Shown here: one piece after another, positions 6,247 through 34,679 of the stretch
Position numbering within the stretch: the stretch's first letter is position 1
Layout: the number at the start of each line of letters is the position of its first letter
Source: Vulgatibacter incomptus
Lineage (GTDB): Bacteria > Myxococcota > Myxococcia > Myxococcales > Vulgatibacteraceae
Direction of reading: 5' to 3'
NCBI RefSeq assembly: GCF_001263175.1
Contig: NZ_CP012332.1
Coordinates: 4,112,220-4,176,219 of the forward strand
Length of the DNA stretch: 64,000 bases
Notes under the pieces: model-generated
What the model saw: only the letters and a program-made list of their open reading frames with translations
The model's database searches: none
What the model was told of the DNA's origin: nothing
Translations under genes and position numbers: made by a program

Positions 6247-7269
6247 ATGTTTCGAATGAAGTACCTCCTGGTGGCCGCTCTCTTCGCGGTTGGAACGATG
6301 ACGTCGGCGTGCGGCAGCGACTCTGCCGACACGGGAGGAACGGGCGGCGACAACGGCACCGCCGGCAGCGGTGGCGATGATGGCACCGCCGGCAGCGGCG
6401 GCGATGACGGCACCGCCGGCAGCGGTGGCGATGATGGCACCGCTGGCAGCGGCGGCGACGACGGCACCGGCGGCACGGGTGGCGATGACGGCACCGGCGG
6501 AACTGGTGGCGACGACGGCGGCGTGAAGCCGACGGACTGCGAGGCGGCCTGCGACTTCGCCGAGGAGACCTGCGGCTGGCTCGACGCTTCGAGCCCCGAC
6601 TATGCGGCAGAGCACGCCGGCTGCATAGCGATGTGCGACGCGGAGACCGAGTGCTTCGTGGAGGCCATCCATGCCTGCAGCGAGCGAGCGCTGGACGCCT
6701 GCTTCCGCTCGGCGGACGAGACGCCCGAGTGCACCGAGATGTGTGACAACCTCTATTACGAGTGTGGGAGCGGCTTCGAGGGCGTGTCCCGCGCGGACTG
6801 CGGCGCCGCCTGCTCGGCGGGCGTGTTCGAGCCGGAGCTGGTCGCCTGCCTCTCCGCCACCTGCGACGAGGACGCGCTTCAGGCCTGCTTCGACGACGGC
6901 GAGGGTCCCGGCGGGCCGGACGCCTGTGAGGTGGCCTGCGCCCACGTGACCGGCGAGTGCGGCCTCGACACCTGGACCGAGACCTCGTGCCTGCGCGCGT
7001 GCCGCGCCTCCTACACCGCCGAGCAGGCGGACTGCCTCGCCTCGCTCGAGTGCACCGCGGATCCGATCGAGACCTGCTTCGGCGAGCTCTCCTGCGTCGG
7101 GATGTGCGACCACGTCTACAACGAGTGCGGCGCCGCCATCGGCGACGGCACCCAGGAGGACTGCGAGGTCCTCTGCCGCTGGGGCCTCTTCTCGGATACC
7201 GAGGTCGCCTGCTTCTCCACGGTGGCCTGCGGCGAGGTCGACGCCTGCGACGAGACCCTCGCGGACTAA
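6247..7269 (+). CDS. Cys-rich secreted lipoprotein with Gly/Asp/Thr repeat linker
   Basis: Not a recognised enzyme. The 340-residue product has a lipoprotein signal (MFRMKYLLVAAL..., lipobox TSAC, acylated Cys at residue 22), then a low-complexity linker of nine-residue repeats (GGDDGTAGS type, about residues 33-92), then about 245 residues with some 35 cysteines. The Cys domain itself looks repeated: units of about 60 residues carry a CxxMCDxxYxECG start, a DCxxxC middle and a VACLS or VACFS stretch, consistent with disulfide-bonded modules on the cell surface. ATG at 6247 is chosen because GGAG lies 8-9 bp upstream; an ATG three codons later is possible. Such linker-bearing lipoproteins are common in Myxococcota. 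Function unknown; a surface or spore-coat role is only a guess. Confidence 0.85.
   Translation: MFRMKYLLVAALFAVGTMTSACGSDSADTGGTGGDNGTAGSGGDDGTAGSGGDDGTAGSGGDDGTAGSGGDDGTGGTGGDDGTGGTGGDDGGVKPTDCEAACDFAEETCGWLDASSPDYAAEHAGCIAMCDAETECFVEAIHACSERALDACFRSADETPECTEMCDNLYYECGSGFEGVSRADCGAACSAGVFEPELVACLSATCDEDALQACFDDGEGPGGPDACEVACAHVTGECGLDTWTETSCLRACRASYTAEQADCLASLECTADPIETCFGELSCVGMCDHVYNECGAAIGDGTQEDCEVLCRWGLFSDTEVACFSTVACGEVDACDETLAD
6343..6522 (+). repeat. 27-bp in-frame tandem repeat encoding a Gly/Asp/Thr linker
   Basis: Six full copies and one partial copy of a 27-bp unit inside the lipoprotein gene, each coding for a nine-residue variant of GGDDGTAGS. The first four units end Ala-Gly-Ser, the last two Gly-Gly-Thr, so the array has evolved by unit duplication and drift. 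Such arrays can change copy number by slippage and would alter linker length without shifting the frame. Confidence 0.9.
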
Positions 7270-7297
7270 GCTGAGGCCCGTCTTCCGCGCCTTCGGT

Positions 7298-8251
7298 TCA
7301 GGGGCGCGGAAGGCTCCGCGGCCTCGCGCTCACCGCGGCGAGGCCCGCCAGCCCGAGCAGGACCACCACCCCGCCGACCAGCGTCCAGCCGGCGGGCCAG
7401 GGCTCGTCGAGGAGCGCTACGCCCATCAGCGTGGCGAAGAGGAGCTCCGAGCCCTGCATCGCCTCCACCGCGCCCAGCGCAGTGGGATCGTTGCGAACCC
7501 TTCCGGTCGCCTCGAAGAAGAGCACCGTCGCGATCACGCCCGCGGACACGGCGACGCCGCCCGACAGCCACACCTGCTCGATCGACGGCGCCCCGCTCCG
7601 GACGAAGCCCCAGACGGCGACGACCAGCCAGAGCGGCATGCTGGCCAGGGTCATGCCGAAGACGCGCTGCAGGGCGCTCAGCGAGCGCCCCTCCCTCTCC
7701 AGGTGGAGCAGCATCCTCCGGTTGCCGAAGGGATAGGCGAAGGCCGACACGAGCACGCAGCCGAGGGCGATCCAGCCGTCGCTCTGCAGGCCGCTGCCGA
7801 TGCGGCCGAGCTGCATGAGGACCACGCCGCCCACCGTGACCAGGCCGATGCCGAAGGCGAGAGGCGGGATGCGCCCGCGCTCGTCGTCGTAGAGCAGCGG
7901 CGCCAGCACCATGCCCGCGACCACCGTGAGCTGGAAGCCCGCGGCGACGAGCCACGACGGTCCGCTGTCGGCGGCGTAGCTCAAGCAGACGTAGAAGAGG
8001 ACGAAGCCGATGCCGCTCCATGCGAGCCACGGCCCGGGGCTCGCGCGCATCGCCGAGAGCACCGGGCGCGCGCCGCCCCGGAGGCCCACCAGCCCCGCGA
8101 GGATCGGGAGGGTGATCAGGTAGCGCAGGCTCGCCGTCCACGCCCAGTGGCCGCCTGCGACCGCCGCGCGGCGGTTGAGGACGTAGGTGAGCGTGAAGAA
8201 AAGGGCCGAGGCCAGGGCGAGGAGCACGGCGCGGAATGCGGTCTTGTTCAT
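7298..8251 (-). CDS. DMT-superfamily exporter, EmrE-type multidrug resistance family
   Basis: A 317-residue inner-membrane protein with about ten predicted helices in two tandem halves, as in the drug/metabolite transporter superfamily. The N-terminus (ALFFTLTYVLNRRAAVAGGH) and the positions of Arg/Trp residues in the loops resemble the EmrE multidrug resistance efflux family rather than plain EamA transporters. It starts at ATG 8251, 81 bp behind the second efflux operon's last gene on the same strand, and ends 28 bp from the convergent lipoprotein gene. Substrate unknown; it may be cotranscribed with the efflux operon but the gap leaves room for its own promoter. Confidence 0.82.
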   Translation of the reverse strand: MNKTAFRAVLLALASALFFTLTYVLNRRAAVAGGHWAWTASLRYLITLPILAGLVGLRGGARPVLSAMRASPGPWLAWSGIGFVLFYVCLSYAADSGPSWLVAAGFQLTVVAGMVLAPLLYDDERGRIPPLAFGIGLVTVGGVVLMQLGRIGSGLQSDGWIALGCVLVSAFAYPFGNRRMLLHLEREGRSLSALQRVFGMTLASMPLWLVVAVWGFVRSGAPSIEQVWLSGGVAVSAGVIATVLFFEATGRVRNDPTALGAVEAMQGSELLFATLMGVALLDEPWPAGWTLVGGVVVLLGLAGLAAVSARPRSLPRP

Positions 8252-8332
8252 GGGCGGGACATCGGGCCAGAGGCGCGGCTACCGCTCTTTATTCCGCCCG
8301 CGTCCGCGCGTCGCCCTCAATTGCGCGCACGC

Positions 8333-9649
8333 CTATCGGGAACGCGATTGGCGGAGCCACGACGCGCGTGCCACCCGCAGTTCGAGCACCGCGAGATCGA
8401 GGCGCCTCGTCGCGGCCTCCAGCCTGCGGAGGGCCACGCCTCGAGCGACGGCGTCCATCGCGCCGCTCTCCACCGCGCGACCGAGTAGCTCGAAGTCCCG
8501 CGAGATGATCGCAGCGGTCGGAACGAGCTCTCGATGGGCGTTTGCGGCCGCCATGTAGGCGGCCCACGCCTGCTGGAGCTCGGCACGGACGTTGGAACGG
8601 ACGATCGCAACACGGGCCGATGCGCCCAGCGATGCGGCTCGTGCCTGCGCACGAGGCTCGCGGGCGCCCTCGAAGATCGGGATCGGCACACCCAGCGAGA
8701 GGACCACCTCCTTCTCCGGCCACGCGGCGCTCAGGCCTGCAGACGAAGGACCGTGGAACGAGCCCTCGGGAATGTCGGACCGCCTGGTGATGAAGTCCAC
8801 GCCCACCGTCGGCACGGGCCACATCAGGCGCTCGTTCATCCGGACGGCCAGCTCCATCGCGTGCGCCTCGGCCTCCGCGGCGCGTACCCTGGGGTCGCGC
8901 TCGATCACGGCATCCGGTTCGTTCTCGTCGGGGGCGTTCGAAGGCTCGTCCGGATCCTCGACCTCCAGGTAGGGCTCCAGCCCGCAGGCCATCAGCCTAG
9001 CCAGGGCGACCCGGGTCGTCTCGACCGCGCCTCTGGCCTGCTCCAGTCCGGCGCGGGCGTCTGCTGCGTCGATCTCCGCCGCGTCGAGGTCGATCCGATT
9101 GCCCTGACCGACTTCGAACCGCTGTCTCTCGGCGTCCACCGCGAGCTCGAAGAGGGCGGACACACGCTTGGCAGAGGTCACGGCGCGCTGGGCAGCCGCG
9201 AGCTGGGCGAAGGCGACGTCCACCGCTTCGTCCAGGGCGCGGAGCGCGTCCTCCCGGTCGTACCTCGTGCGCTCCAGGTCGGCCTCCGCCGAGCCCTTGC
9301 GCGATGACCACGAGCCCGAGACATCGATCGGAAACCGGGCGCCGACGGTGGCGGAATATCCCGCCGACGTTCCAGCGGCGGACGCAGGCGAGAAATCGAT
9401 TGAGAGCGACGGATCGTGCCGCAGCCGACGGCTCGCATCCTCGAGCAGAATCTCTGCGCCGCGAACGCGGGCCTCGAGCTCCGCGGTCTCTGGCGCGTGG
9501 GCGCGAGCTTCGGACCTGGCCTCCTCCAGCGTCATCGGTCTCGCCAGGTCCGTGCAGGATCGGGCCTCGATGAGGCTGGACGCCTGAACATGGGCCGGCC
9601 CACTGAGGGAGAACGCGAGGATTACGAAGGTGCGGCCGGCCCGTTTCAT
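8333..9649 (-). CDS. TolC-family outer-membrane efflux protein of the second RND operon
   Basis: A 438-residue outer-membrane factor, last gene of the BlaI-headed efflux operon. The N-terminal signal peptide runs to about residue 24 (HVQA-SSL). The body shows two OEP repeats: PMTLEEARSEARAHAPETAE opens the first and ERDPRVRAAEAEAHAMEL opens the second, with coiled-coil regions rich in Ala/Glu/Arg. LSLGVPIPIFEGAREPRAQA is the characteristic strand-to-helix junction. Its ATG overlaps the stop codon of the pump gene (ATGA), indicating translational coupling. It differs clearly from the first operon's factor, so the two efflux systems are not recent duplicates. Confidence 0.92.
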   Translation of the reverse strand: MKRAGRTFVILAFSLSGPAHVQASSLIEARSCTDLARPMTLEEARSEARAHAPETAELEARVRGAEILLEDASRRLRHDPSLSIDFSPASAAGTSAGYSATVGARFPIDVSGSWSSRKGSAEADLERTRYDREDALRALDEAVDVAFAQLAAAQRAVTSAKRVSALFELAVDAERQRFEVGQGNRIDLDAAEIDAADARAGLEQARGAVETTRVALARLMACGLEPYLEVEDPDEPSNAPDENEPDAVIERDPRVRAAEAEAHAMELAVRMNERLMWPVPTVGVDFITRRSDIPEGSFHGPSSAGLSAAWPEKEVVLSLGVPIPIFEGAREPRAQARAASLGASARVAIVRSNVRAELQQAWAAYMAAANAHRELVPTAAIISRDFELLGRAVESGAMDAVARGVALRRLEAATRRLDLAVLELRVARASWLRQSRSR

Positions 9650-12600
9650 CCCGGGCCTCCCGCGAGCCGTCGGGTCCGCCGGCTCTCGAGCCAGACGTAG
9701 ACGGTGGGCAGCACGATCAGGTTCAGCGAGGTCGCCGTGACGAGGCCGCCACAGACGATCAGGGCCATCGGGGCCTCGAGCTCGCTGCCGGCGCGGCCGA
9801 TCGAGAGGGCGAGAGGGAGCAGCCCGAGACCCGCCGTTGCCGCCGTCATCACCACAGGAAGCAACCGCTCCTCCGCCGCGCGGAGGATCCTCGCGACGGC
9901 GTCGACGTCCGGCAGCGCCAGCTCGAGGTGACGTTTGTGGGTCACGAGGAGGATCCCGTTGCGCGCGCTGATCCCGAAGAGGGTTACGAAGCCGATGAAC
10001 GCCGCTACGGAGAGCCCGTCCGGGATCAGCGTCGAGGCGAGGACGCCGCCCACGAGCCCCAGGGGAAGGTTGAGCAGTACGATCCCCGCGTCCCGGAGAG
10101 AGCCGAAGGCAGACGCGAGGAACACGACGATCCCGGCGAGGACCAGGCCGCCCACCAGGGCGAGACGCCCTGCCGCCTCTTGCCGGGCGACGGCCTCGCC
10201 GCCGATCTCGATCCGGTAGCCCGGGGGTAGCCGAACCCGCTGCTCGAGCTCGCGAGAGAGGCGGGCAGCCGTCGTCGAGAGCGCCGACCCCGGCGGGCTC
10301 GCCGTGATGGCGACGCGCCGCTCGCCGCCGTCGCGCCGCACCTCGAACGGAGCAGGGACCTCCCGGATCGAGGCGAGGGCCTCGAGGGGAAGCACGCCAG
10401 CGAGACGGGTCGCGATCGGAATGTCACGCAGCGCTCCGCGCTCGCGAAAATCGGGAGGACCGGCGAGGGCGACGTCGACGATGCGTCCCGAGGGATCGAA
10501 GACCTGGGTGACGGTCCGCCCATGTCGCCAGTCGACCACGGCGTCGGCGACCTCGGCAGGTCGGATCCCCGAGGTCAGGAGCCTCGCGCGGTCGGGAACG
10601 ACGAGGAGCTGTGGGAGATCGAGCTGGGGCTCGACGCGAACCGGGCCGAGCTCCGGAATCGTCTGCATCACCGAGGCGATCTGCCCTCCGAGGGCGCGAA
10701 GCTCGCCCAGCTCGGGACCGATGGCCTTGACGACGATCGGCGCGGTCTCGCCTGCAAGGACCTCGTGGATCCTCTCCGAGAGGAACCCTTCGACGACGAA
10801 GCCGATCCCGGGAATGGCGTCGAGCCTGGCCTCGAGCTCTTCGATCGCATGATCCCTGCTCTCGCCGCTGGGCAGCCCGAGATCGAGCTCCATGCTGTGA
10901 ACCGGGGCGCCGTCGTCGTCGAGCTCGGCGCGGCCGATTCGCGTCGCGACGTGCTCCGCAGCGTCGGGCCGGGCGTTCCGATCGATGGCCCGCGCGATCG
11001 CCTCCGCCGCCTCGAGCGACGCTCCCGGAGCGGCGTGAACGTGCGCGATCACCGTGCGCTCGTGGAACTCCGGGAGGAAGCGGCCTCCGAGCGAGGACCA
11101 GGTCAAAACTGCGGCGACCACCGCTGTCGCAGCCGAGCCGAACACGATCCGGGGATGCCCGACGGCCTTCCCGAGGAGGAGCCGGTACCGGAGCAGCAGC
11201 CAGGTCGCGAGCCGGGTCGGGTTGGCCTCGGTCGCTGCCACGCGCGGGAGGAGGAGCCCGCACATCGCCGGAGTCACCGTCAGCGCGACGAGGAGTGAGG
11301 CCGCGATGGCGAGGACATAGGATTGCGCCAAGGGCGAGAAGATCCGCCCCGCGATCCCTCCCAGGAAGATCACCGGCAGGAGGACGACGCAGACGATCAC
11401 CGTGGCGTAGACCACGGAGCCGCGGATCTCCTTCGATGCGTCCCGGATCACGTCGAGGGCGGGCCTCGGCTCGATTCGGAGCGCGTTCTCCCTCAGGCGG
11501 CGCCAGACGTTCTCGACGTCCACGATGGCGTCGTCCACGACCTCGCCGACGGCGATCGCGAGGCCGCCGAGGATCATCCCGTTGATCGTCTCCCCTCGGA
11601 GGACGAGCACCGTGAGAGCGGCGACGAGGGACAAGGGGATCGCGGTCAGGCTGATCGCCGCCAAGGTCTTGGACCGCAGGAAGGCGATCAGCACCGCGAC
11701 CACGAGGACGCCGCCGAGGAGCATCGCGTGGACGACGCTGCGGACCGAGGTCCGCACGAAGTCGGCCTGGCGCGAGACCGGCGCCTCGAAGCGAGCGCGG
11801 GCTGGAGCGGCAGCCGCGAGCTCGTCGAGCGCGGCTTCGACCCGCCGGGTCAGCTCGAGGGTGTCCGTTCCCGGGAGCTTGTTGACCTGGAGGTAGAGCG
11901 AGGGACGCCCGTCGTGGATCGCCGCGCCTACCTTCGGGACGGTGGCCATGACCACGTCGGCCACGTCGCCGACGCGGACGGGCACGCCGTCAGGCGACAC
12001 CACCACCACGTCGCCGAGGTCGGTGAGGGCACGAGCGAGGGGAAGGTGCGTATCGGTGACGACCTCGAGACGTGCGTCCCCACTGGTGGTGAAGCCGGCG
12101 CCGGCAGGCGCCTGGGCGTCTCTCAGGGCCAGCGCCAGGTCCTGGATGGAGACCCCGCGGGCATGGAGCCTGGCCAGATTGGGCTGGACCTCGATCCGCT
12201 CCACCGCGCCGCCGTGGATGCCGACATGGGCCACCCCCGGGATCCCGAGGAGGCGAGGTCTCACGACCCAGTCGCCAAAGGCGCGCAGGTCCCGAAGCTC
12301 CTGTTCGGACGCATCTTCCGGGAGGGAGATCGAAACCTTGAGGAGCGCGTTGAGGGCCGCTGTTACGGGCGCGAGGCGTGGGAGTCCAACCGACAGCGGC
12401 AGTTGGGCTCGCGCGAGCTCGAGCCTCTCGGTCACGAGCTGCCTGGCGCGGTAGACGTCGACGGCCTCGTCGAAGGTGAGCGTGATCACGGAGAGGCCCG
12501 GGCCGCTGGACGAGCGCATGGAATCCAGCGAGGGCGTGCCGAGGAGCGCCCGCTCCAACGGGCGTGTCACCAGCTCTTCCAGCTCCAACGTGCTCATGCC

Positions 12601-22145: not shown

Positions 22146-23231
22146 TTGAAGTCGTTCAGAGTGATCCCGCTCGTCGCGGGAGCCGTTGCCCTCGCGTCGT
22201 GCAAGGGCGAGGCGAAGCAGGAGAAGCCCCAGGCGGAGGAGCAGGCGATCGTCCAGAAGGCGGTCGCGGCAATCGACCCCGCCTTCCTCCACGCGTTCGG
22301 CAAGCTCCCGGCGCGCATCGACCACGCGAGCGGCCCCGACGCCGAGGAGCGGATCTCGCTCGGCCGCACGCTCTACTACGAGACCCGCCTCTCCAAGAAC
22401 CACGACCTCTCGTGCAACAGCTGCCACGACCTGGCGGCGTTCGGCGTGGACGGCAAGGCGACCTCGCCCGGACACAAGGGCCAGCTTGGCGCACGCAACT
22501 CCCCGACGGTCTACAACGCCGCGGGCCGCCACGCGCAGTTCTGGGACGGCCGCGCCGTCGACGTGGAGGAGCAGGCCACCGGTCCGATCATGAACCCGGT
22601 GGAGATGGCGATGCCCGACGAGAAGCGGGTGGTCGAGACCCTGCGCTCGATCCCGGCCTACGTCGAGGCGTTCGCCAAGGCCTTCCCCGAGGAGAAGGAG
22701 CCGATCACCCTCGCCAACGTGGGCAAGGCGATCGGCGCCTTCGAGCGCGGCCTCGTCACGCCGTCGCGCTGGGACGCCTACCTGGGCGGCGACGAGAAGG
22801 CCCTCACCGACGAGGAGAAGGTCGGCTTCACCAGGTTCATGGAGACGGGCTGCACCGCCTGCCACGCCGGAGCCTACGTCGGCGGCGCCATGTTCCAGAA
22901 GCTGGGCCTCGTGAAGGCCTGGCCAACCAACAAGGACCTCGGCCGCTTCGAGGTCACCAAGAACGAAGCGGACAAGATGATGTTCAGCGTCCCGTCCCTG
23001 CGGAACATCGCGAAGACCGGTCCGTACTTCCACGACGGTTCGGTCGAGAGCCTGGACGAGGCGGTGCGGATGATGGCGGCGCACCAGCTCGGCAAGGAGC
23101 TCGCAGACGACGACGTGAAGTCGATCGTCGCCTGGCTGGGCTCGCTCACGGGCGAGGTCCCCGCGGCGTACATCGCGAAGCCGGAGCTGCCAGCCTCGAC
23201 GGACAAGACGCCGAAGGCCGATCCCACCTGA
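22146..23231 (+). CDS. Di-heme cytochrome c peroxidase (CcpA/MauG family) lipoprotein
   Basis: A 361-residue periplasmic peroxidase reducing hydrogen peroxide with electrons from a c-type cytochrome. Two heme sites are present: C90-N-S-C93-H94 and C236-T-A-C239-H240. Family signatures ISLGRTLYYETRLSKNHDLS, GARNSPTVYNAA and FSVPSLRNIAKTGPYFHDGS are intact. The N-terminus is a lipoprotein signal (lipobox LASC, Cys 19), so the enzyme is probably tethered. The start is TTG at 22146: AAGGAG lies 7 bp upstream, while the ATG at 22141 is followed at once by ATT-TGA. The Lys/Glu-rich segment after the lipobox is a flexible spacer. Confidence 0.93.
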   Translation: MKSFRVIPLVAGAVALASCKGEAKQEKPQAEEQAIVQKAVAAIDPAFLHAFGKLPARIDHASGPDAEERISLGRTLYYETRLSKNHDLSCNSCHDLAAFGVDGKATSPGHKGQLGARNSPTVYNAAGRHAQFWDGRAVDVEEQATGPIMNPVEMAMPDEKRVVETLRSIPAYVEAFAKAFPEEKEPITLANVGKAIGAFERGLVTPSRWDAYLGGDEKALTDEEKVGFTRFMETGCTACHAGAYVGGAMFQKLGLVKAWPTNKDLGRFEVTKNEADKMMFSVPSLRNIAKTGPYFHDGSVESLDEAVRMMAAHQLGKELADDDVKSIVAWLGSLTGEVPAAYIAKPELPASTDKTPKADPT

Positions 23232-25778: not shown

Positions 25779-28568
25779 ATGCGTACGCGGTTGCTGATGC
25801 TCGTGTCGTGTTTGTCGATCCTTACTGCTTGTGGAACGGAGCGGAACCCGGTCCAAAACGGCGGTACGGGCGGCTCCGGCGCCGATGGCGGCACGGGCGG
25901 TGACGGTGGAACGGCCGGCTCCGGCGGCGATCCGGGAACCGGTGGCACCTCGGGCTCCGGGGGCTCTGCCGGGTCCGACGGTACGGGAGGCACCGGCGGT
26001 ACCGCGGGCTCGGGCGGGCAGGGCCCGTGCGTCGAGCCGAAGGAGCTGCCGCCCTTCTGCCTGGAGGGAACATGCCTCCTCGACGCGCCCGCCGGCATGG
26101 TCGATCTCCTCGTCGCGGGCCGGGATCCCGAAGGCAACATCTACGTGCTCGGCCGTTCTGGCGACCGCTACCAGCTCCGCCTCGCGGTCTGGAACGGGGC
26201 CACCTGGACCAACCTCGGCCGCATCCCGGTCGAAGAGATGGACGGCGAGTCGCGTCTCTCCATGGCCGCCATCAGCCCGACGGAGGTCTGGCTGGTCTCG
26301 AGAGTCCTGATGCGCTGGGACGGTCAGAGTTGGAGGTCCCAGAAGCCGCTGCCCACGTTCAACTCGGCCAACGACCTCGCCGTCTCGCGGTCCGGCACGG
26401 TCTGGCTCACGATGGGAGGTGCCGTCTACCGCCTGTCGAGCGACGGGTGGATCGAGGTCGGGGCCAGGACGATGCAGGCGGGGCGGATCCAGGTGATCGA
26501 CGACTCGGATCTCTGGGTGACCGGCTCGAAGAGCGTCTCCCATTGGAACGGTCAGAGCTGGGAGACCCACGCGGGGAGGGAGTCGGTGACGGCCCTCCTG
26601 GCAACCGAGCGACGTGTGCTCCGGGCGGAGCAGGGCGGAGGCCTGTTCTCCTTCGAGGGCGACACGTGGCGCGAGCTGCCGGGCGGCGCCGAGCTCCGAT
26701 CGTTCGTCGAGGTGGGCGATGTCCTCTACGCCGTCGGGACCACGGACTTCGAGGACGCGCTCTATCGGGTGAGCGCAGCGGGAAGGGAAGCGATCCCGCT
26801 CCCGGCCAACTTCCAATTCATGGACAACTTGCATCTCGCGTCGGATCGCGACGCCCTCTGGATCTTCGGGAGGACGGGGATCTACCGGAAGGGCGAGAGT
26901 TGTTGGGCGGAGCACCAGCGGGCGGATCTCCCGGCCATCGACGCTCTCGCTGGACGCTCCGCCTCGGAGCTCGTCGGATTCAACACCAGCGGATGGGCGG
27001 GGCGCTGGTCCAGCCGGCGTTGGCTCACGGAGGAAGCCAACCCCATGGGCCCCGGCTCCCATATCGAGGCCACGACGGTCGGTGATGAGATCTGGGCGGT
27101 TTCGACGGACAACCCGGTGGTCCGACGAAAGGCCGGCCGGTGGGAGACGATGCTCGAGTCCGAGAATGGCTTCAATGCGGTGGCGTCTGGCGGCGGGCGT
27201 GTGTGGGTCGGCGGAAGCGGAGGGGCGCTGCGGGAGTGGGGCGGCGCGTCCTGGCTCGACCGAAGCATCGCAGGCGGAGGGTACATGTCCGCCCTGGCGG
27301 TGGCCGGCTCCGCCTTTTCCGTGGAATTCTCAAACCTCAACGATTACGTGCTGCGCCGCTGGGATCCGGCCGGGAGTTGGAAGAGGGTGCTCCGGACGTA
27401 CGCGCCGATCTGGCATCTCGCGGCGAAGCCCGACGGCGAGCTCCTCGCCGCCGGATCCCTGGACGTGCTCGGGGGCGGATTCGTGGCCCGGATCCGCGAC
27501 GGAGCCCTGGAGTTCCTCGACGTAGACGCGCCTCCGCCGAGCTGGAGCCGCATGCACGCCCAGGAAGGGGACCTCGACGACCTCAAGATCGACTTCGTTG
27601 GGAACCGCGCAGCGGTCCAAGCGACGGCTACGGGATACCGGGTCTCGGTCAGCCAGAGCGCGCTCCTGGACTCCTGGTCCCACGGGAACGAGCGGTGGTC
27701 CGCCGACGTGAACGGAAATCTCACCCATGAGACCGCCGCGGGCAGCGAGGTCGTCTCGCTGCGCCCCCGCGTGACCGCGATCTGGGGCAGCGGTCCGAGC
27801 GACGTCTGGTTCGTCGGAGACGGAGGACAGGTCCAGCACTGGGATGGCACCGCCCTCGAGGAGAGGACGAGCCCCGGCACCGAGAACTACACGGCGGTGT
27901 GGGGAGCCGGCGGCAGGGTCTGGGCCGCGAACCGGGACGGGAACATCCATTGTCTGGCCGGCGACGGCTGCGTCGGTCTCCCGTCGGCCAGCTACGTCGC
28001 CGCCATCCACGGTACTGGACCGGACGACGTGTGGGCGGCGGGCGCGAAGCTCGCGCACTTCGATGGCACCGAATGGACGTTTGTGGAGCGCCCGCTCGGC
28101 GACACTCTCGTCACCATATGGGCTACTTCGGAGGGCCAGGTCTTCACGGCGAGCTCCAAGGAGGTGGCCCGGTGGGACGGGCTCCGCTGGTCGGTGAACT
28201 CGGTGCCGGCTGTCCGGATCACGGGGATCGCGGGGACCGGGCCGGAGGACATCTGGCTCTGCGCGGAGCAAGCGCAGCACGCGGACGAGCCCACGCTTTA
28301 CTTCTGGAATGGCGAGGAGTGGGACGGGCTTCGCTTCGCGCCCTACAGCTCGCGCCGCTTCCGCGGCATGCGGATCGACTCCCGGGGCGTGGTGTGGATC
28401 GCGGCGGAGGATCGCGTGATCCGCAGCGATGTCACGGACTTCTGGAAATCGGAGCGGGCGCCCTTCGAGGCCCTCGACATCCTCTGGATTGCGCCGAACT
28501 CCAGCTCCGTCGCGATCTCGACCGCGTCGGGGCCGGCGTGGCTCCCGCAGAGCATCGTATCGCATTGA
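25779..28568 (+). CDS. Large secreted lipoprotein with Gly-rich linker and propeller-like repeats
   Basis: A 929-residue lipoprotein (MRTRLLMLVSCLSILTAC, lipobox Cys at 18). Residues about 26-83 are a linker of Gly, Ser, Thr, Ala and Asp. The rest is built from many short repeats of the type G-x-G-P-x-D-V/I-W-x-V-G followed by HWDG-x-x-W, e.g. IWGSGPSDVWFVGDGGQVQH and IHGTGPDDVWAAGAKLAHFD, as in beta-propeller proteins frequent in Myxococcota. No catalytic motif is seen. The frame is open 84 codons upstream, but ATG at 25779 begins the signal peptide. The gene follows the deoxyhypusine-synthase-like gene by 115 bp and precedes another secreted lipoprotein. Function unknown; surface display is likely. 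Confidence 0.85.
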   Translation: MRTRLLMLVSCLSILTACGTERNPVQNGGTGGSGADGGTGGDGGTAGSGGDPGTGGTSGSGGSAGSDGTGGTGGTAGSGGQGPCVEPKELPPFCLEGTCLLDAPAGMVDLLVAGRDPEGNIYVLGRSGDRYQLRLAVWNGATWTNLGRIPVEEMDGESRLSMAAISPTEVWLVSRVLMRWDGQSWRSQKPLPTFNSANDLAVSRSGTVWLTMGGAVYRLSSDGWIEVGARTMQAGRIQVIDDSDLWVTGSKSVSHWNGQSWETHAGRESVTALLATERRVLRAEQGGGLFSFEGDTWRELPGGAELRSFVEVGDVLYAVGTTDFEDALYRVSAAGREAIPLPANFQFMDNLHLASDRDALWIFGRTGIYRKGESCWAEHQRADLPAIDALAGRSASELVGFNTSGWAGRWSSRRWLTEEANPMGPGSHIEATTVGDEIWAVSTDNPVVRRKAGRWETMLESENGFNAVASGGGRVWVGGSGGALREWGGASWLDRSIAGGGYMSALAVAGSAFSVEFSNLNDYVLRRWDPAGSWKRVLRTYAPIWHLAAKPDGELLAAGSLDVLGGGFVARIRDGALEFLDVDAPPPSWSRMHAQEGDLDDLKIDFVGNRAAVQATATGYRVSVSQSALLDSWSHGNERWSADVNGNLTHETAAGSEVVSLRPRVTAIWGSGPSDVWFVGDGGQVQHWDGTALEERTSPGTENYTAVWGAGGRVWAANRDGNIHCLAGDGCVGLPSASYVAAIHGTGPDDVWAAGAKLAHFDGTEWTFVERPLGDTLVTIWATSEGQVFTASSKEVARWDGLRWSVNSVPAVRITGIAGTGPEDIWLCAEQAQHADEPTLYFWNGEEWDGLRFAPYSSRRFRGMRIDSRGVVWIAAEDRVIRSDVTDFWKSERAPFEALDILWIAPNSSSVAISTASGPAWLPQSIVSH

Positions 28569-28632
28569 TCCGACCGCGCCGATCGGGCTTCCCGGGCCTG
28601 GTGAAAGGGCCGCGGGAAGGAGACCTCACGAC

Positions 28633-30651
28633 ATGCGAAGCCTGCTCCTGATCGGCGCGGTTCTCCTCTTCGCCGGATGCAGCTCCTCGAAGGCTACTGG
28701 TGGAACGGGCGGTAACGCCGGCTCCGGTCCTGGCGAGGAGCCCGAGCTCTGCGGCGGCGCCGCCTGCAAGGCAGAGGAGGTCTGTGACCCCTTTGCCCAG
28801 CGCTGCGTCGAGGCGCTGCCTTCGCGCTGCCGCCCAGGGACCTCCTGGCAGCCGGGGATGGTGGCCTTCCGGGACGCGACCGAGAAGTGGGGGCTCGCGG
28901 CGCTGGGAGTCGAGGGTACCCGACTCTCGGTCGCGGACATCGACGGCGACGGCTTCCCCGACCTCTCGGCGCGCAAGGTGGGGACGCTCTCCGACGACTT
29001 CGCCCCCGGCGGAGTCCGGGCGACGTGGCTGCTGCGCAACGTCGCGGGAGAGCGCTTCGAGGACGTCACCGAGGCGTCGCGGCTGGTGACGCCGCGCCGC
29101 ACCACCGAGCCGCGGCGCGGGCGTCCCGCGGAGGTCGTGATCTGGGCCGACGTGAACAACGACGGCCACGTGGACGCGTTTACCGGGCTCTCGAACACCG
29201 ATCCGAAGAACCGCCAGATCGAGAGCTCCGAGCTGATGCTCAACGACGGGACGGGGCACTTCGTCCTCGGCCCCGAGGACGCGGTGTTTCGGCGCGAGGG
29301 GGACGCCGTGAGCCGCGCCGCGGCGGTCTTTCTCGACGCCGATCGGGACGGCGCGATCGACCTCTTCCTGGGAAATGGCGCAGTGAACGGGGCTCTCAGC
29401 CAGGACCAGCTCTACCGCGGTCTGGGCGACGGCCGCTTCGAGGAAGTGACGGCCGCCGCGGGCCTCACCACCTCGCCCTGGAAGTCGCTCGACGATCTCA
29501 ACCACGGCCGGGGCCACTCCAACGCGTGGGGCGCGGTGGCCTGCGATCTGAACGGCGATGGGAGGCCGGACCTCGCCGTGTCGTCGTACGGGCGCGCGCC
29601 GAACCACCTCTGGCAGGCGGCGGATGGCGAGGGGATCTCCTTCGTCAATCGCTCGGTGGAGTCGGGCTACGCCTTCGATGACCGTCGCGACTGGAGGGAC
29701 AACGAATCGGCCCGGTGCTGGTGCAAGCTCCACCCCGACGCGGAGGATTGTGGCGGCGTGCCGGCGCCGCAGTTGATCCGCTGCCAGACGGACGCCGACG
29801 CCTTTCGCTGGAACCACGCCACCGACCGGGAGCCGTACCGCCTGGGCGGAAACTCCGGGACCACGGTCTGCGCCGACGTGAACAACGACGGCGCGATGGA
29901 TCTCGTCACCACCGAGATCGTCCACTGGGACGTCGGGACCTCGAGCGATCCGAGCGAGCTCCTCCTGAACACCGGCTCTTCCGACGTGACCTTCCGGCGC
30001 CCGGGCAACGAGGCCACCGGCCTCGCGCGAGCGCACGATCGCGTCGACTGGAACGACGGAGACATCACCGCTGCCGTCTTCGACTTCGACAACGACGGTC
30101 GGCCGGATCTCTACATCGGCTCTTCGGACTATCCGGGGACCCGCGGCCACCTCTACTGGCAGCGCGAGGACGGGACTTTCGAGGAGGTGCCGATCGACGT
30201 GGGGATCGATCAGAAGGCGAGCCTCGGGATCGCGGTGGCGGACTTCGACGGCGACGGCGACCTCGACGTGGTGGTGGGCCACTCGCGGATGCGCTGCGAG
30301 GATCAGTGCTACGAGACCGCGACCACGCGCATCTTCGAGAACGTGATGGGCCAGGACGGCAACTGGATCCAGCTCGACCTGGTTGGCGGGCCGAACACCA
30401 ACCGCAGCGCCATCGGGGCGCGGGTGACGGTGCAGACCGAGCTCGGCACGCAAACCCAGGAGAAGGGCGGCGGCCACGGCCACTACGGCATGCAGCACGA
30501 CCCCGTGCTCCACTTCGGCCTTGGCAAGGCGTGCGAGGCCAAGGTGACGATCCGCTGGCCCGACGCCGCTCTCACCGAGCAGCGGTTCACGCTGCAGTCC
30601 GGCTATCGCTACCGGCTCGAGCAGGGCGGGGTGCCGGTGGCCCGCCGCTAG
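28633..30651 (+). CDS. Secreted lipoprotein with FG-GAP/VCBS repeats and C-terminal ASPIC/UnbV domain (CRTAC1-like)
   Basis: A 672-residue lipoprotein (MRSLLLIGAVLLFAGC, lipobox Cys 16) with a short Gly/Thr linker and a Cys pair region (CGGAACKAEEVCDPFAQRC). The main part is a beta-propeller of FG-GAP/VCBS repeats, each with a calcium-loop motif D-x-D/N-x-D-G-x-x-D: VADIDGDGFPDL, WADVNNDGHVDAFTG, DLNGDGRPDLAVSS, DVNNDGAMDLVTTE, DFDNDGRPDLYIGS and DFDGDGDLDVVVGH. Residues about 560-672 match the ASPIC/UnbV domain (NWIQLDLVGGPNTNRSAIGA...RVTVQTE). This architecture is known from cartilage acidic protein-like bacterial proteins of unknown role. ATG 28633 lies 64 bp after the preceding lipoprotein gene; the two may share a transcript. 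Confidence 0.9.
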   Translation: MRSLLLIGAVLLFAGCSSSKATGGTGGNAGSGPGEEPELCGGAACKAEEVCDPFAQRCVEALPSRCRPGTSWQPGMVAFRDATEKWGLAALGVEGTRLSVADIDGDGFPDLSARKVGTLSDDFAPGGVRATWLLRNVAGERFEDVTEASRLVTPRRTTEPRRGRPAEVVIWADVNNDGHVDAFTGLSNTDPKNRQIESSELMLNDGTGHFVLGPEDAVFRREGDAVSRAAAVFLDADRDGAIDLFLGNGAVNGALSQDQLYRGLGDGRFEEVTAAAGLTTSPWKSLDDLNHGRGHSNAWGAVACDLNGDGRPDLAVSSYGRAPNHLWQAADGEGISFVNRSVESGYAFDDRRDWRDNESARCWCKLHPDAEDCGGVPAPQLIRCQTDADAFRWNHATDREPYRLGGNSGTTVCADVNNDGAMDLVTTEIVHWDVGTSSDPSELLLNTGSSDVTFRRPGNEATGLARAHDRVDWNDGDITAAVFDFDNDGRPDLYIGSSDYPGTRGHLYWQREDGTFEEVPIDVGIDQKASLGIAVADFDGDGDLDVVVGHSRMRCEDQCYETATTRIFENVMGQDGNWIQLDLVGGPNTNRSAIGARVTVQTELGTQTQEKGGGHGHYGMQHDPVLHFGLGKACEAKVTIRWPDAALTEQRFTLQSGYRYRLEQGGVPVARR

Positions 30652-30702: not shown

Positions 30703-31404
30703 TCAGGGGGAGTTGAGCTTCCACGCGGAGACCGTCCCGTGGAAGTATCCCTCCACGATCCAGCCGTCCTCCATGTAGCCGCGCGCGGAGACCGCGCCGT
30801 GATGGGCGACCTGCCAGTCCCCGATGGTGCCCCGCTCGCCTTGCGCGATCTCGATCGAGTCGGGCCCCAGGCTCGCCCGGACGCCGTACACGGGCACGCG
30901 GCAGGTGTTGGTGCCCTGTGCGTAGCAGAGCGCAAAGAAGTCGATGTCGGGGCAATCGTCCGCGAACGGAGAAGGATTCTGCGGTGAGAAGGCATAAACG
31001 TCCGCGTTCGCCAGCGTCGCGTTGGGACCGATGACCACGCTCCAATCGCCCCTGCCGTCCACGGTCACCTCGTCGCCGACGGCGAACTTGTCGTCGACCG
31101 GCTCGAACCAGACGAAGGAGAGCGGAACATCCCACGGTCCCTCGAGGATCAGGGTCGAGTCCGACACCGACGTCACCCAGGCCCGCTGCGCGATGCGTTC
31201 CCAATAGCGCGACTGAAGGCCCAGCTTCGGCGAGTCGGACGGCTCGATTGGCTCGATGCCGGGCTCACACGAATCGACGTCGCGCGCGATCACCTCGCAC
31301 CGGCCGTGGTTTTCATCCTGGAGATCCCTGACCGCGGTGGTCCCCGTGCCGGGGCAGTGGAGACTCGCGAGAACGCCAAGGGAGACGAGCGAGACGAGTT
31401 TCAT
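30703..31404 (-). CDS. Hypothetical secreted protein, probable lipoprotein
   Basis: A 233-residue protein not recognised. It has an N-terminal hydrophobic signal MKLVSLVSLGVLASLHC with Cys at 17, which could be a lipobox (ASLHC is not ideal). The mature part has six further cysteines (CEVIARDVDSC; CPDIDFFALC; NTC), suggesting disulfides, and beta-rich segments such as LILEGPWDVPLSFVWFEPVD and VTVDGRGDWSVVIG. The gene is convergent with the ASPIC lipoprotein and divergent from the heme-motif operon. No repeats or known domain. Confidence 0.7.
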   Translation of the reverse strand: MKLVSLVSLGVLASLHCPGTGTTAVRDLQDENHGRCEVIARDVDSCEPGIEPIEPSDSPKLGLQSRYWERIAQRAWVTSVSDSTLILEGPWDVPLSFVWFEPVDDKFAVGDEVTVDGRGDWSVVIGPNATLANADVYAFSPQNPSPFADDCPDIDFFALCYAQGTNTCRVPVYGVRASLGPDSIEIAQGERGTIGDWQVAHHGAVSARGYMEDGWIVEGYFHGTVSAWKLNSP

Positions 31405-31611
31405 CGGACCCCTCCATCGCTACCTCTCGAGCATCCCCTCCTGGTGCGCTTGGCGTCAAGGTTCGGGAACCCACCCGTACTCGGGTCCCATCGCCGCTCC
31501 CCGCGTCGTGGAGTGGGCCCGGTTTCGAAGTTCCGAATTCGGCCGCCCCCCTCTTGAGTCGCGGGTGGGAGCCGTGCTCTCCTTCGTACATCTCGTCGGT
31601 TGCACCCACGT

Positions 31612-32004
31612 ATGTCATCCCAGATCGACTCCCATCTCCTCACCTGGTCGCGGCTCGCCGGGCTCGCGGCGGGCGCCTTGCTGGCCCTCGCTGGCTGCTC
31701 TTCCTCGCCCAACTGCGACGACCTGCTGCCCGCCGGCTCCGCGAGCTTTCGCGACGTCGCGCCGATGTTCACCGACAAGGGCCCGAAGGGCTGCGCCCAG
31801 TGCCACAACACCAAAGAGCCGGTTTACGGGCTGAACTTCGAGGGGCCCGCCGTGACCTACGACGCCCTGAACCGGAGGTTCGACGCGATCTATGACCAGG
31901 TCGAGACCGGCTCGATGCCCCGGAAAGGCGAGCGGTGGACTCAGGCCGATCTGAAGCTGCTTCGGAGCTGGTACTGCCAGGGAGCGATCTATGAGACGCC
32001 TTGA
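31612..32004 (+). CDS. Small c-type cytochrome-like lipoprotein (single CxxCH)
   Basis: A 130-residue lipoprotein (MSSQIDSHLLTWSRLAGLAAGALLALAGC region, lipobox LAGC with Cys at 29) holding one heme-binding motif C-A-Q-C-H in GPKGCAQCHN, about residue 63. The C-terminus (GSMPRKGERWTQADLKLLRSWYCQGA) contains a Met-Pro that could supply the axial ligand, as in planctomycete-type mono-heme domains. A TTG four codons upstream is an alternative start; neither has a clear ribosome site. The gene overlaps the YceI gene by 14 bp and opens a four-gene operon with two other heme-motif proteins. Role as an electron carrier is inference from the motif. Confidence 0.75.
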   Translation: MSSQIDSHLLTWSRLAGLAAGALLALAGCSSSPNCDDLLPAGSASFRDVAPMFTDKGPKGCAQCHNTKEPVYGLNFEGPAVTYDALNRRFDAIYDQVETGSMPRKGERWTQADLKLLRSWYCQGAIYETP

Positions 32005-32536
32005 GCTCTTCGTCGGTCTGCTGATCGTCACGCTCTGTTCGACCGCGCTCGCAGAGCCGACGAAGGAATCGGTGGCGAGCGGCAGCGAGGTGAGCTTCGT
32101 CGCGAAGATCACCGGCGGGTCGTTCGTGGCGAAGACGGAGAAGGTCTCCGGGAGCCTCGCCGTCGATCGGGAGCAGAAGCGGATCTCCGGCACGATCGTC
32201 GTGCAGGCGGGCTCGTTCTCCTCCGGCCTCGGCATGCGCGACAACCACATGCGCGACAAGTACCTGGAGGCGGAGAAGTTCGAGACGCTGGTCTTCACCG
32301 CTGCCGATCAGCCGTTCGATCCGGAGGAAGGCAAGCCGTCGAAGGTCCAGGGAACGCTCACGGTGAAGGGCATGAGCCAGCCCGTCACGGTCGACGTGAA
32401 GCTCGACGCCGGAACCGCGAACGCGACCTTCCAGGTGGACGTCACGAAGTTCGGGATCCCGCAGCCCTCGTTCGCGGTCGTAAAGATGGACCCAATCGTC
32501 GAGGCCACGGTGAAGCTGGTCCTGAAGCATGAGTAG
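31991..32536 (+). CDS. YceI-family periplasmic lipid/isoprenoid-binding protein
   Basis: A 181-residue secreted protein with signal peptide MRRLELFVGLLIVTLCSTALA (cleavage after ALA, residue 21). The mature part is the YceI lipocalin-like barrel: SEVSFVAKITGGSFVAKTEK, then VQAGSFSSGLGMRDNHMRDKYLEAEKFE, VQGTLTVKGMSQPVTVDVKL and a hydrophobic end. MRDNHMRDKYLEAEKFE is the most conserved block. Family members bind isoprenoid quinone or polyisoprenoid lipids in the periplasm. It overlaps both neighbours (14 bp and 8 bp), so it is translated from the same message as the heme-motif proteins, which suggests a lipid- or quinone-related electron-transfer job (inference). Confidence 0.93.
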   Translation: MRRLELFVGLLIVTLCSTALAEPTKESVASGSEVSFVAKITGGSFVAKTEKVSGSLAVDREQKRISGTIVVQAGSFSSGLGMRDNHMRDKYLEAEKFETLVFTAADQPFDPEEGKPSKVQGTLTVKGMSQPVTVDVKLDAGTANATFQVDVTKFGIPQPSFAVVKMDPIVEATVKLVLKHE

Positions 32537-33650
32537 GACCGCGCTCGTCGCGTTCGGAGTCAGCCTCGCGATCGCCGGATGGAGCACCTCGGCTGGTGCC
32601 TATCCCCAGTACGTCGCGAAGGGGTACACGAGCTGTGCCTCGTGCCATTACAGCCCTACCGGGGGCGGTCTCCCGAACTCCTACGGCCATCTTGCGACGG
32701 CGGCCACCTTCCCCGACGAGTTCCCATCCAGTGGGATCGACAAGCTGCGCGATTCCCTTTCGAAGCGAGACGTCACAGGACGGGACGAGAGGGGCGACCT
32801 GGCGTTCCACTACGACGCGGGCCTCGACAGTCGCCTGATGCTCGCGACGTTGCCCACGGTGGCGTTCATCCCGATGCTGGTGGAGGTCGGGGGCGTGATG
32901 GCATACGGCGACGGATTCGCCTACGCCACCATCACGCCGAAGCCGGTGGGCGGCTCGTCGAGCGGACGCTACGACGCCGTCTCGCGCGAGCATTGGGTTC
33001 AGTACAAGCTCTCCGATCGGCAGGGTCTGCGGGTCGGGCGGATGACGCTCCCCTTCGGACTGCGGATCGCCGATCACACCGCTCCCACCCGCGAGGACTT
33101 CGGCTTCGGCAGCTTCGATCAGCGGTATGCGCTGGGGTGGGATCTGCTGACCGACGACGTCGCGGTCTCGGTCGCGGCCTTCGGTGGCTCGCGGCTGGAC
33201 TCGCTCGACGAGCGAGGGGCCGCCGCCTCCGTGACCTACATGTTCCCTTCGCGGCTGGCCATCGGCGCGTCCCTGCTCGGCGCCGACGCGGTGGCCTCGG
33301 CCCGAGTCGCCGGCAGCCTCTTCGCGCGCTGGCGGGTTTGGGGCTCGACGTACGCGCTAGCCGAGGTGGCGGGCCAGCAGCGGTCCACCAAGGGCGCCGA
33401 CGCGAGCATGGTCGAGGCCGCGACCCTGCTGCGCGCGGGGTGGTTCCCCCTGGAGTCGATGGACGTATTCGCGCAGGTGGGTGGCCGGAGGATCCAGGGC
33501 GCCTACGAGGCCACCAAGCTCCGTTACATGGTGGGGACCGATTGGAAAGTCCTCCCCTGGGTCGAGCTCTCGCCCGCCTACGTCTTCGACGAGAACGTCG
33601 AGGCCGGGCCGAGCCACCAGTTGCTCGCACAGATGCACGTCTTTTGGTGA
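32529..33650 (+). CDS. Outer-membrane beta-barrel protein with N-terminal heme motif
   Basis: A 373-residue secreted protein. Signal peptide to about residue 24 (STSAGA-YPQ), then within ten residues the motif C-A-S-C-H-Y-S-P-T-G-G-G followed by LPNSYG, a conserved pattern of a poorly characterised c-heme/barrel family. The rest alternates short strands, e.g. WVQYKLSDRQGLRVGRMTLPF, SVTYMFPSRLAIGASLLG, and ends with an aromatic residue (MHVFW), typical of a porin-like barrel of about 14-18 strands. It could let electrons or a heme-linked ligand cross the outer membrane. The start overlaps the YceI stop by 8 bp and the next gene follows after 9 bp. No MtrB or known porin-cytochrome match is claimed. 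Confidence 0.8.
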   Translation: MSRTALVAFGVSLAIAGWSTSAGAYPQYVAKGYTSCASCHYSPTGGGLPNSYGHLATAATFPDEFPSSGIDKLRDSLSKRDVTGRDERGDLAFHYDAGLDSRLMLATLPTVAFIPMLVEVGGVMAYGDGFAYATITPKPVGGSSSGRYDAVSREHWVQYKLSDRQGLRVGRMTLPFGLRIADHTAPTREDFGFGSFDQRYALGWDLLTDDVAVSVAAFGGSRLDSLDERGAAASVTYMFPSRLAIGASLLGADAVASARVAGSLFARWRVWGSTYALAEVAGQQRSTKGADASMVEAATLLRAGWFPLESMDVFAQVGGRRIQGAYEATKLRYMVGTDWKVLPWVELSPAYVFDENVEAGPSHQLLAQMHVFW

Positions 33651-33659
33651 GGTCTAGGG

Positions 33660-34679
33660 ATGAAGACGAAGTGGATGTGGGTCGTGGTCTGCGCAGCGCT
33701 CGCTGGAGGGCTCGCCTGCCTCGGGTCCGGCACGCTCAACGAGGGCGGCAACTGTGACACGACTAGCGGTGAAGAGGTCGTTAGCGATAAGTGCTTGAGT
33801 TGCCACTCGTCCACCAAGGGTGGCGGGGAGCGCGGCGGCGCGCCGACCACGGTGGATCTCGACAACGACGGCGACGTCCTCCGGCATGCGGACAAGATCC
33901 GCTCCACGGTCTTCGGGAAGGGGACGATGCCGCCGGCGCGACCGCTCGACTCCTGTGAGCGCGCGGCGCTGGAGACCTACCTCTCGACGCTGGAGCAGGG
34001 ACGCTGCATTCCCTCCTGCACGGGCCGTGTCTGCGGCGACGATGGCTGCGGCGGCACCTGCGGGACCTGCAAGATCGGGGAAGAGTGCACGGCGGAGGGG
34101 AAGTGCGAAGCCAAGGTCTGCACACCCGACTGCGACGGAAAGTCGTGCGGCTCCGACGGGTGCGGAGGCAGCTGTGGCACGTGTGCGGACGGGTTCGCCT
34201 GCAGCGCCGAGCAGCTCTGCGCCTGCGAGACCGGGAACTGCGGCTGTACGCCCGACTGCGACGGGAAGTCCTGCGGCCCCGACGGATGCGACGGGACCTG
34301 CGGCACCTGCGGAAATCAGCAGGAGTGCGATCCCGACCAGAAGTGCGCCTGGCAGGCGAAGTCGTACGCGGCGGACGTGGCGCCGATCTTCGCTGCGAAG
34401 ACCTGCGCCAACGGTGGGTGCCATGCCCGGACGAATCCGCAGGACGGCCTCGATCTCTCGACGGCGTCGGCCGGCTTCGCGGGCATGGTGGACAAGCACT
34501 CCCACTGCGCCGGGAAGCTCCTGGTGAACGCGGGAGATGTGACCGGCAGTTACCTCGTCAACAAGCTCACCGGTCAGGGCATGTGCAGCGGCGCGCGGAT
34601 GCCGAAGAACACCACGCCGCTCTCCCCCGGCCAGATCGACGTGGTCCGCGCCTGGATCGGCTCGGGCGCGGCGCCGTAG
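33660..34679 (+). CDS. Secreted heme-motif protein with Cys-rich CGxDGCGGxCGxC repeats
   Basis: A 339-residue protein with N-terminal signal MKTKWMWVVVCAALAGGLAC (Cys 20, likely lipobox). A canonical heme motif C-L-S-C-H occurs at about residues 45-49 and an unusual C-A-N-G-G-C-H (four residues between the Cys) near 253-259. Between them lie three copies of a disulfide-rich unit (PSCTGRVCGDDGCGGTCGTC, TPDCDGKSCGSDGCGGSCGTC type), as found in many Myxococcota surface proteins. The last segment (SGARMPKNTTPLSPGQIDVV) resembles the C-terminal Met-Pro region of mono-heme cytochromes, so the second site is probably also a heme. Last gene of the four-gene operon. Confidence 0.78.
   Translation: MKTKWMWVVVCAALAGGLACLGSGTLNEGGNCDTTSGEEVVSDKCLSCHSSTKGGGERGGAPTTVDLDNDGDVLRHADKIRSTVFGKGTMPPARPLDSCERAALETYLSTLEQGRCIPSCTGRVCGDDGCGGTCGTCKIGEECTAEGKCEAKVCTPDCDGKSCGSDGCGGSCGTCADGFACSAEQLCACETGNCGCTPDCDGKSCGPDGCDGTCGTCGNQQECDPDQKCAWQAKSYAADVAPIFAAKTCANGGCHARTNPQDGLDLSTASAGFAGMVDKHSHCAGKLLVNAGDVTGSYLVNKLTGQGMCSGARMPKNTTPLSPGQIDVVRAWIGSGAAP

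Follow-up and report, generated by a model that had tools for sequence, protein, structure and literature searches.

A YceI lipocalin and a monoheme barrel as the conserved core of a putative outer-membrane redox operon in Vulgatibacter incomptus

What task might be served by four tightly packed genes of Vulgatibacter incomptus, three of which encode predicted exported proteins with heme-c motifs, the remaining one encoding a YceI lipocalin? We analyzed this operon in a stretch of 64,000 nucleotides (contig NZ_CP012332.1, positions 4,112,220 to 4,176,219; hereafter the window). An earlier interpretation made from the letters of the DNA (the sequence-only reading) had described one translational unit for two heme-motif lipoproteins, a YceI protein and a heme-motif outer-membrane barrel. 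All four co-oriented plus-strand open reading frames (31612-34679) are present as described, and the single-unit organization is borne out by exact overlaps of 14 bp between genes 1 and 2 and of 8 bp between genes 2 and 3, followed by a 9-bp gap between genes 3 and 4. The motifs that had been reported (CAQCH in gene 1, the YceI domain of gene 2, CLSCH, CANGGCH and the cysteine repeats in gene 4) are likewise all in place. CxxCH motifs are found in 4 of the 53 likely open reading frames of the window, and three of these four belong to the operon. We found that the conserved core is formed by the YceI gene and the heme-barrel gene, not by the whole four-gene set. On a narrow balance, we favor the view that the operon encodes an outer-membrane redox module, in which a periplasmic pool of quinone and cytochromes would trade electrons with a soluble partner that enters an arginine-rich pore.

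The monoheme barrel family and its relation to Cyc2

Behind its heme module, the gene 3 protein is barrel-like, with a weak match to the Porin_O_P family (E=0.005) that lies under the Pfam cut-off; weak matches of this kind are present in 7 of 36 family members. No solved structure was matched by the profile of the barrel family. When gene 3 served as the query, homologs were found in 47 of 195 Myxococcota genomes, and a profile of the barrel family matched proteins in 51 of 189 genomes from 32 genera, some of the weakest matches being Cyc2-motif proteins. We extracted 40 barrel neighborhoods and aligned 36 barrels. Each of the latter possesses exactly one CxxCH at the same N-terminal place, down to approximately 20 % identity, and their N-terminal modules share the consensus AYPWMIRHGYxSCAxCHVDPSGGGxLTxYGRAQ. 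As judged from these alignments, the heme-motif barrel of the sequence-only reading stands as a conserved family; given the invariance of the motif in 36 homologs, a CxxCH that arose in a barrel by chance was rejected. M116, H183 and E279 are invariant in the barrel part of the 36 aligned copies, and seven arginines (R102, R153, R171, R179, R188, R259, and R267) vary little or not at all. Either M116 or H183 might serve as the sixth heme ligand.

To our knowledge, Cyc2 is the sole fused monoheme cytochrome-porin that has been characterized. By calling the system undescribed, the sequence-only reading overlooked this nearest relative, which shares the fused heme-porin design. According to Keffer et al., Cyc2 unites an N-terminal monoheme domain and a porin of 16 strands in one polypeptide, and its CXXCH is preceded by AXPXFAR[QK][TY] and followed by PXL (PMC8406198). 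Its criteria comprise a single N-terminal CXXCH, a signal peptide, a length of at least 365 residues, PXL four residues after the CXXCH, the AXPXFAR[QK][TY] motif, which is described as unique to Cyc2, and an OprO/P-like barrel (PMC8406198). The gene 3 protein resembles Cyc2 in its signal peptide, its 373 residues, its one CxxCH (as in each of the 36 homologs), a predicted barrel of similar size, and an A-x-P that in both starts 12 residues before the first cysteine. However, AXPXFAR[QK][TY] finds no match in gene 3, which has AYPQYVAKGYTSCASCH at this place, nor in any of the 36 homologs, and a search of the whole host genome that allowed up to 3 base mismatches found none either. In a comparison with 22 Cyc2-motif proteins, which were chosen by the AXPXFAR[QK][TY] motif, PXL after the heme site was present in 21 of these proteins and in none of the 36 family members, whereas CxxCHxxPxG was present in all 36 and in none of the 22. 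The barrel parts of the two groups cannot be aligned, and the seven near-invariant arginines were not found in the Cyc2-motif set. The gene 3 family is linked to YceI and, in most cases, to a cytochrome with a surface tag; near Cyc2-motif genes, the 26 loci examined showed no YceI match. Since the Cyc2 signature is absent in 36 of 36 copies, although the heme modules match by profile, the gene 3 family is by its sequence a sister kind of Cyc2, not Cyc2 itself, and we rejected filing gene 3 under that name. Most likely, these proteins work like Cyc2 in their layout, with a barrel chemistry that would differ through the conserved arginines.

In a pattern search for AXPXFAR[QK][TY], 18 of the 189 Myxococcota genomes turned out to encode proteins bearing the full Cyc2 signature, with several such proteins in some genomes (loci L083-L108, e.g., L090:3385-4788, L092:2353-3843, and L106:3286-4641). 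We know of no Fe(II) oxidation in these lineages; by the signature of these proteins it is possible.

Gene linkage across the Myxococcota and the variant in the window

In 32 of the 40 loci (21 genera), a co-oriented YceI gene is located upstream of the barrel gene, 27 times within 100 bp. The pairwise divergences of the YceI and barrel proteins are correlated with r=0.81, the maximum of 2000 permutations being 0.38. The usual third gene, behind the barrel, encodes a protein of about 160 residues that contains a single CxxCH, a DxDGDGxxDxxEL loop of the calcium-binding type and a GC-transmembrane-RRR tail; in 7 of 12 members, this tail matches the MYXO-CTERM model TIGR03382 at E <= 0.1. Such a small monoheme MYXO-CTERM-like protein follows 43 of 53 barrels directly (-7 to +77 bp); 43 of 45 strong matches to it across the phylum lie at this same distance behind a barrel. 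The profile of this downstream cytochrome also gave hits that were mainly to calcium-binding loops. Myxosortase and, according to a proposal, type II secretion bring MYXO-CTERM proteins to the cell surface (PMC11980579). The small proteins downstream of the barrels in L035-L071 (e.g., L041:7158-7655), in which a TSP3/EF-hand-like calcium loop and a MYXO-CTERM-like tag accompany the CxxCH, appear to constitute a family of surface-anchored, calcium-binding cytochromes. Eight other loci (L033, L044, L045, L049, L050, L051, L057, and L061) carry a lipoprotein-like cytochrome with 1-4 CxxCH before YceI or between YceI and the barrel. The sequence-only reading had suggested that the same four-gene order be sought in other Myxococcota: the YceI-barrel pair does recur elsewhere, but the full set does not, with the gene 1-YceI-barrel order present in one other genome and gene 4 at its place in none.

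As in the cassette of other Myxococcota, YceI directly precedes the barrel in the window. The barrels closest to that of gene 3 (~39-46 % identity) stem from two distant Myxococcota genomes, G187 and G189, whereas the majority of the remaining aligned barrels, among them those from the same order, share just ~19-28 % identity with it. In G189 (locus L072), the gene 1-YceI-barrel order is the same as in the window, and the only clear homolog of gene 1 (46-47 % identity) lies there upstream of the same YceI-barrel pair; beyond it, we found none in the other genomes of the 189, save one marginal match. In G187, the contig ends just upstream of the barrel, inside or near the YceI gene. A profile search for the MYXO-CTERM cytochrome found no homolog in the host genome. 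Because no homolog of this cytochrome was found in the genome, gene 1 has a single clear homolog, and gene 4 was not seen at its position elsewhere, we regard the operon of the window as a rare subtype, in which cytochrome-like lipoproteins stand where the surface-tagged cytochrome usually is. Among other causes, horizontal transfer from one distant lineage to another might account for the distribution of this subtype. A scan of a genome collection yielded one close relative, and collections of plasmids, phages and viruses none. The three genes of L072 (5110-7143; metagenome-assembled genome JALHOP010000011) are located between recF and gyrB, the first of them overlapping the recF stop codon. 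The gyrB reading frame of the same assembly (7222-10989, 1255 residues) contains an apparent intein-like insertion.

The cytochrome-like character of genes 1 and 4 can be judged from their sequences. Gene 1 matches PF13442 with E=1.1e-4 and 22.9 bits, just under the cut-off of 27; it has a likely axial methionine in TGSMP and a conserved cysteine pair (C35/C122), and the CxxCH, the methionine in TGxMP and the cysteine pair are common to it and its G189 homolog. An AlphaFold2 model of gene 1 (predicted local distance difference test score, pLDDT, of 50) gave no meaningful fold match and was not used. The N-terminus of gene 4 matches PF13442 above the cut-off of 27 when the repeats are trimmed off (E=5.1e-7, 30.4 bits). 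By these features, the CxxCH region of gene 4 is a cytochrome-c-like domain, and that of gene 1 probably is one as well. CANGGCH in gene 4 might be a CX4CH heme site; no family matched the C-terminal domain that holds it. The repeat C.PDCDGKSCGxDGCGGxCGTC of gene 4, together with a similar C-terminal region, recurs at one other locus of the genome (G000:C1:520333-521628, in L125). Of the two lipoproteins proposed earlier, gene 1 has a lipobox-like LAGC; the case for gene 4 is weaker than had been proposed, since its lipobox is non-canonical. Gene 4 occupies the position held by the MYXO-CTERM cytochrome in other genomes, yet it is not matched by the profile of that protein, and it ends with GSGAAP instead of the GC-transmembrane-RRR tail found at this position in most related loci. 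We infer that it may do the same job.

The YceI assignment of gene 2 is clear (76.8 bits vs. a curated cut-off of 23.7 for PF04264), and its nearest solved chain is TT1927b (1wub, E=8.8e-9). Two other YceI genes of the host genome score much nearer to the core of the family. YceI lipocalins bind isoprenoids, including ubiquinone-8, and an antioxidant system links them to cytochrome b561 (PMC9113575); in Cbp2D, YceI is joined to c-type cytochrome domains in one protein (PMC8981238).

A possible route for electrons and competing explanations

In the redox module that we favor, the heme module of gene 3 would sit at the periplasmic mouth of the barrel, and fixed arginines probably abound inside that barrel. 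As judged from what is known of the families and from the gene linkage, YceI should carry (mena)quinone or another isoprenoid in the periplasm, and the cytochromes of genes 1 and 4 would shuttle single electrons between this pool and either the heme of the barrel or the cell surface. The host genome carries cytochrome c assembly genes. In Cyc2, the single heme lies at the barrel mouth, and one heme cannot wire electrons through a membrane (PMC8406198). Since one heme at one mouth cannot span the membrane here either, a redox partner that is small, soluble and perhaps anionic would have to diffuse into the pore to give or take electrons, or else a cytochrome of the surface would dock on the barrel. 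The earlier picture of an electron conduit from a lipid carrier through the outer membrane to the surface is borne out in its conserved heme barrel with linked YceI and small cytochromes; as a route through the membrane it is weakened, because a single heme allows no heme-to-heme hopping, unless a surface cytochrome or gene 4 docks from outside. By analogy with YceI-quinone reductant systems, we lean with modest confidence toward a net outward direction, from quinol to an extracellular acceptor, over an inward one.

Several points weigh against this interpretation. The support for it comes from sequence and gene linkage, with heme, quinone and electron transfer being predictions. An AlphaFold2 model of gene 3 with one relative as input was unusable (pLDDT 30), so that the number of strands, the place of the heme and the lining of the pore are predictions. 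The co-divergence of YceI and barrel (r=0.81) was computed without control for the species tree, and gene 4 was not seen at the post-barrel position in the other loci examined. The profile-profile match between the 36 barrels and the 22 Cyc2-motif proteins (E=2e-9, probability 96 %, 48 columns) is confined to the signal peptide and the heme module, the signal peptide adding to the score. Moreover, we know of no report of the host organism as a mineral respirer or an iron oxidizer.

An oxidase working inward in the manner of Cyc2 would take dissolved Fe(II) or another reductant into the pore, reduce the heme plug and feed electrons through the cytochromes of gene 1 or gene 4 into the respiratory chain. 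The common design, the same spacing of the heme module, a barrel of similar size with one heme at its mouth (PMC8406198) and the presence of Cyc2-motif proteins in 18 of 189 Myxococcota genomes fit this idea, but we hold it unlikely: AXPXFAR[QK][TY] and PXL are missing in all 36 members, YceI homologs were not found beside Cyc2-motif genes, and the seven near-invariant arginines, none of which was found among the Cyc2-motif proteins, speak for an anionic partner over a cationic one. These same arginines, together with the weak similarity to Porin_O_P (phosphate-selective porins), would suit an uptake porin for an anion or for an iron or heme compound, with the CxxCH as a structural or sensing plug and the neighbors as incidental exported proteins. 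That seems improbable, for an invariant CxxCH and the repeated association with different cytochromes are unexpected in a simple uptake porin.

The YceI gene invites two further comparisons. In Burkholderia, the YceI protein BcnA and the cytochrome b561 LcoA form an antioxidant system (PMC9113575), and a YceI-bound quinol in V. incomptus could similarly shield outer-membrane lipids from peroxyl radicals, with the barrel and the cytochromes recharging YceI or discharging electrons. Both systems link a YceI lipocalin to a redox cytochrome gene. However, in place of b561, the genes regularly linked to YceI here encode c-type cytochromes and a heme barrel, no Pfam match to cytochrome b561 was found among the operon genes or adjacent open reading frames, and the two other YceI genes of the genome are much closer to the family core; we therefore consider an antioxidant role very unlikely. 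Cbp2D of Cellvibrio japonicus likewise combines YceI with small c-type cytochromes, and its isolated cytochrome domain reduces lytic polysaccharide monooxygenases (PMC8981238), which raises the idea that the operon supplies electrons to such extracellular oxidative enzymes. Yet Cbp2D is a secreted multidomain protein with a carbohydrate-binding module and without a barrel, and no LPMO_10 gene was found in the host genome. For this last reason, we rejected electron donation to these enzymes as the main role and deem any such supply extremely improbable.

Like MtrCAB, MtoAB and PioAB, the redox module that we propose might move electrons through the outer membrane in concert with cytochromes of the periplasm and the surface. 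Those systems build on a 26-strand barrel enclosing a decaheme cytochrome (PMC8406198), whereas here one heme site is fused to a small barrel with mono- to tetraheme partners. An MtrCAB-type conduit was rejected in view of the 373-residue protein, its one heme site and the lack of a decaheme gene in the window; the earlier view of an architecture unlike MtrCAB agrees with one heme site in a barrel of ~370 residues. In the open-access literature that we searched, no description of a YceI-heme-barrel unit was found. We tentatively suggest, as a possibility that falls short of being probable, an undescribed class of electron conduits of the outer membrane, spread through the phylum Myxococcota. 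Its parts would be a YceI lipocalin loaded with quinone, a fused monoheme porin distinct from Cyc2 and a surface cytochrome anchored by myxosortase, which together would link the quinone pool with the cell exterior and need no multiheme wires; the operon of the window would be a variant with lipoprotein cytochromes. If true, soil myxobacteria would hold a second, sequence-distinct cytochrome-porin family, with a quinone lipocalin and a surface-sorted cytochrome as its regular partners, and the minimal design would be more general than iron oxidation. YceI proteins would gain a definite partner in electron transfer, and gene deletion would allow direct tests of the redox chemistry that myxobacteria perform outside the cell; myxobacteria with such gene sets may exchange electrons across their outer membrane.

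Features of the operon and neighboring genes

Table 1. Features of the operon region (positions within the window)
Feature	Position	Strand	Predicted product or nature	Sequence marks
Gene 1 (P0001)	31612..32004	+	Putative lipoprotein, 130 residues, monoheme class-I-like cytochrome c	Lipobox-like LAGC; CAQCH
Gene 2 (P0002)	31991..32536	+	Exported YceI-family lipocalin, 181 residues	Signal peptide; PF04264 E=3.1e-21
Gene 3 (P0003)	32529..33650	+	Fused monoheme cytochrome-porin, 373 residues; N-terminal AYPQYVAKGYTSCASCHYSPTGGG module, then outer-membrane barrel	Signal peptide; CASCH; invariant R102, M116, R153, H183, R188, R259, R267, E279
Gene 4 (P0004)	33660..34679	+	Putative (lipo)protein, 339 residues; N-terminal cytochrome c domain, Cys-rich repeats, C-terminal CANGGCH domain	CLSCH; TMPP
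Intergenic region	31405..31611		Presumed promoter

The intergenic region separates the operon from a divergent gene (30703-31404, minus strand), and no match to the sigma-70 consensus was found in it. The host genome consists of one contig of 4,350,553 bp. The fourth CxxCH-containing open reading frame of the window encodes an ordinary diheme cytochrome c peroxidase/MauG-type protein (22146-23231, plus strand; PF03150, E=7.6e-55), and an FG-GAP/VCBS repeat protein with an ASPIC/UnbV C-terminal domain (PF13517, PF07593) is encoded at 28429-30651 on the plus strand.

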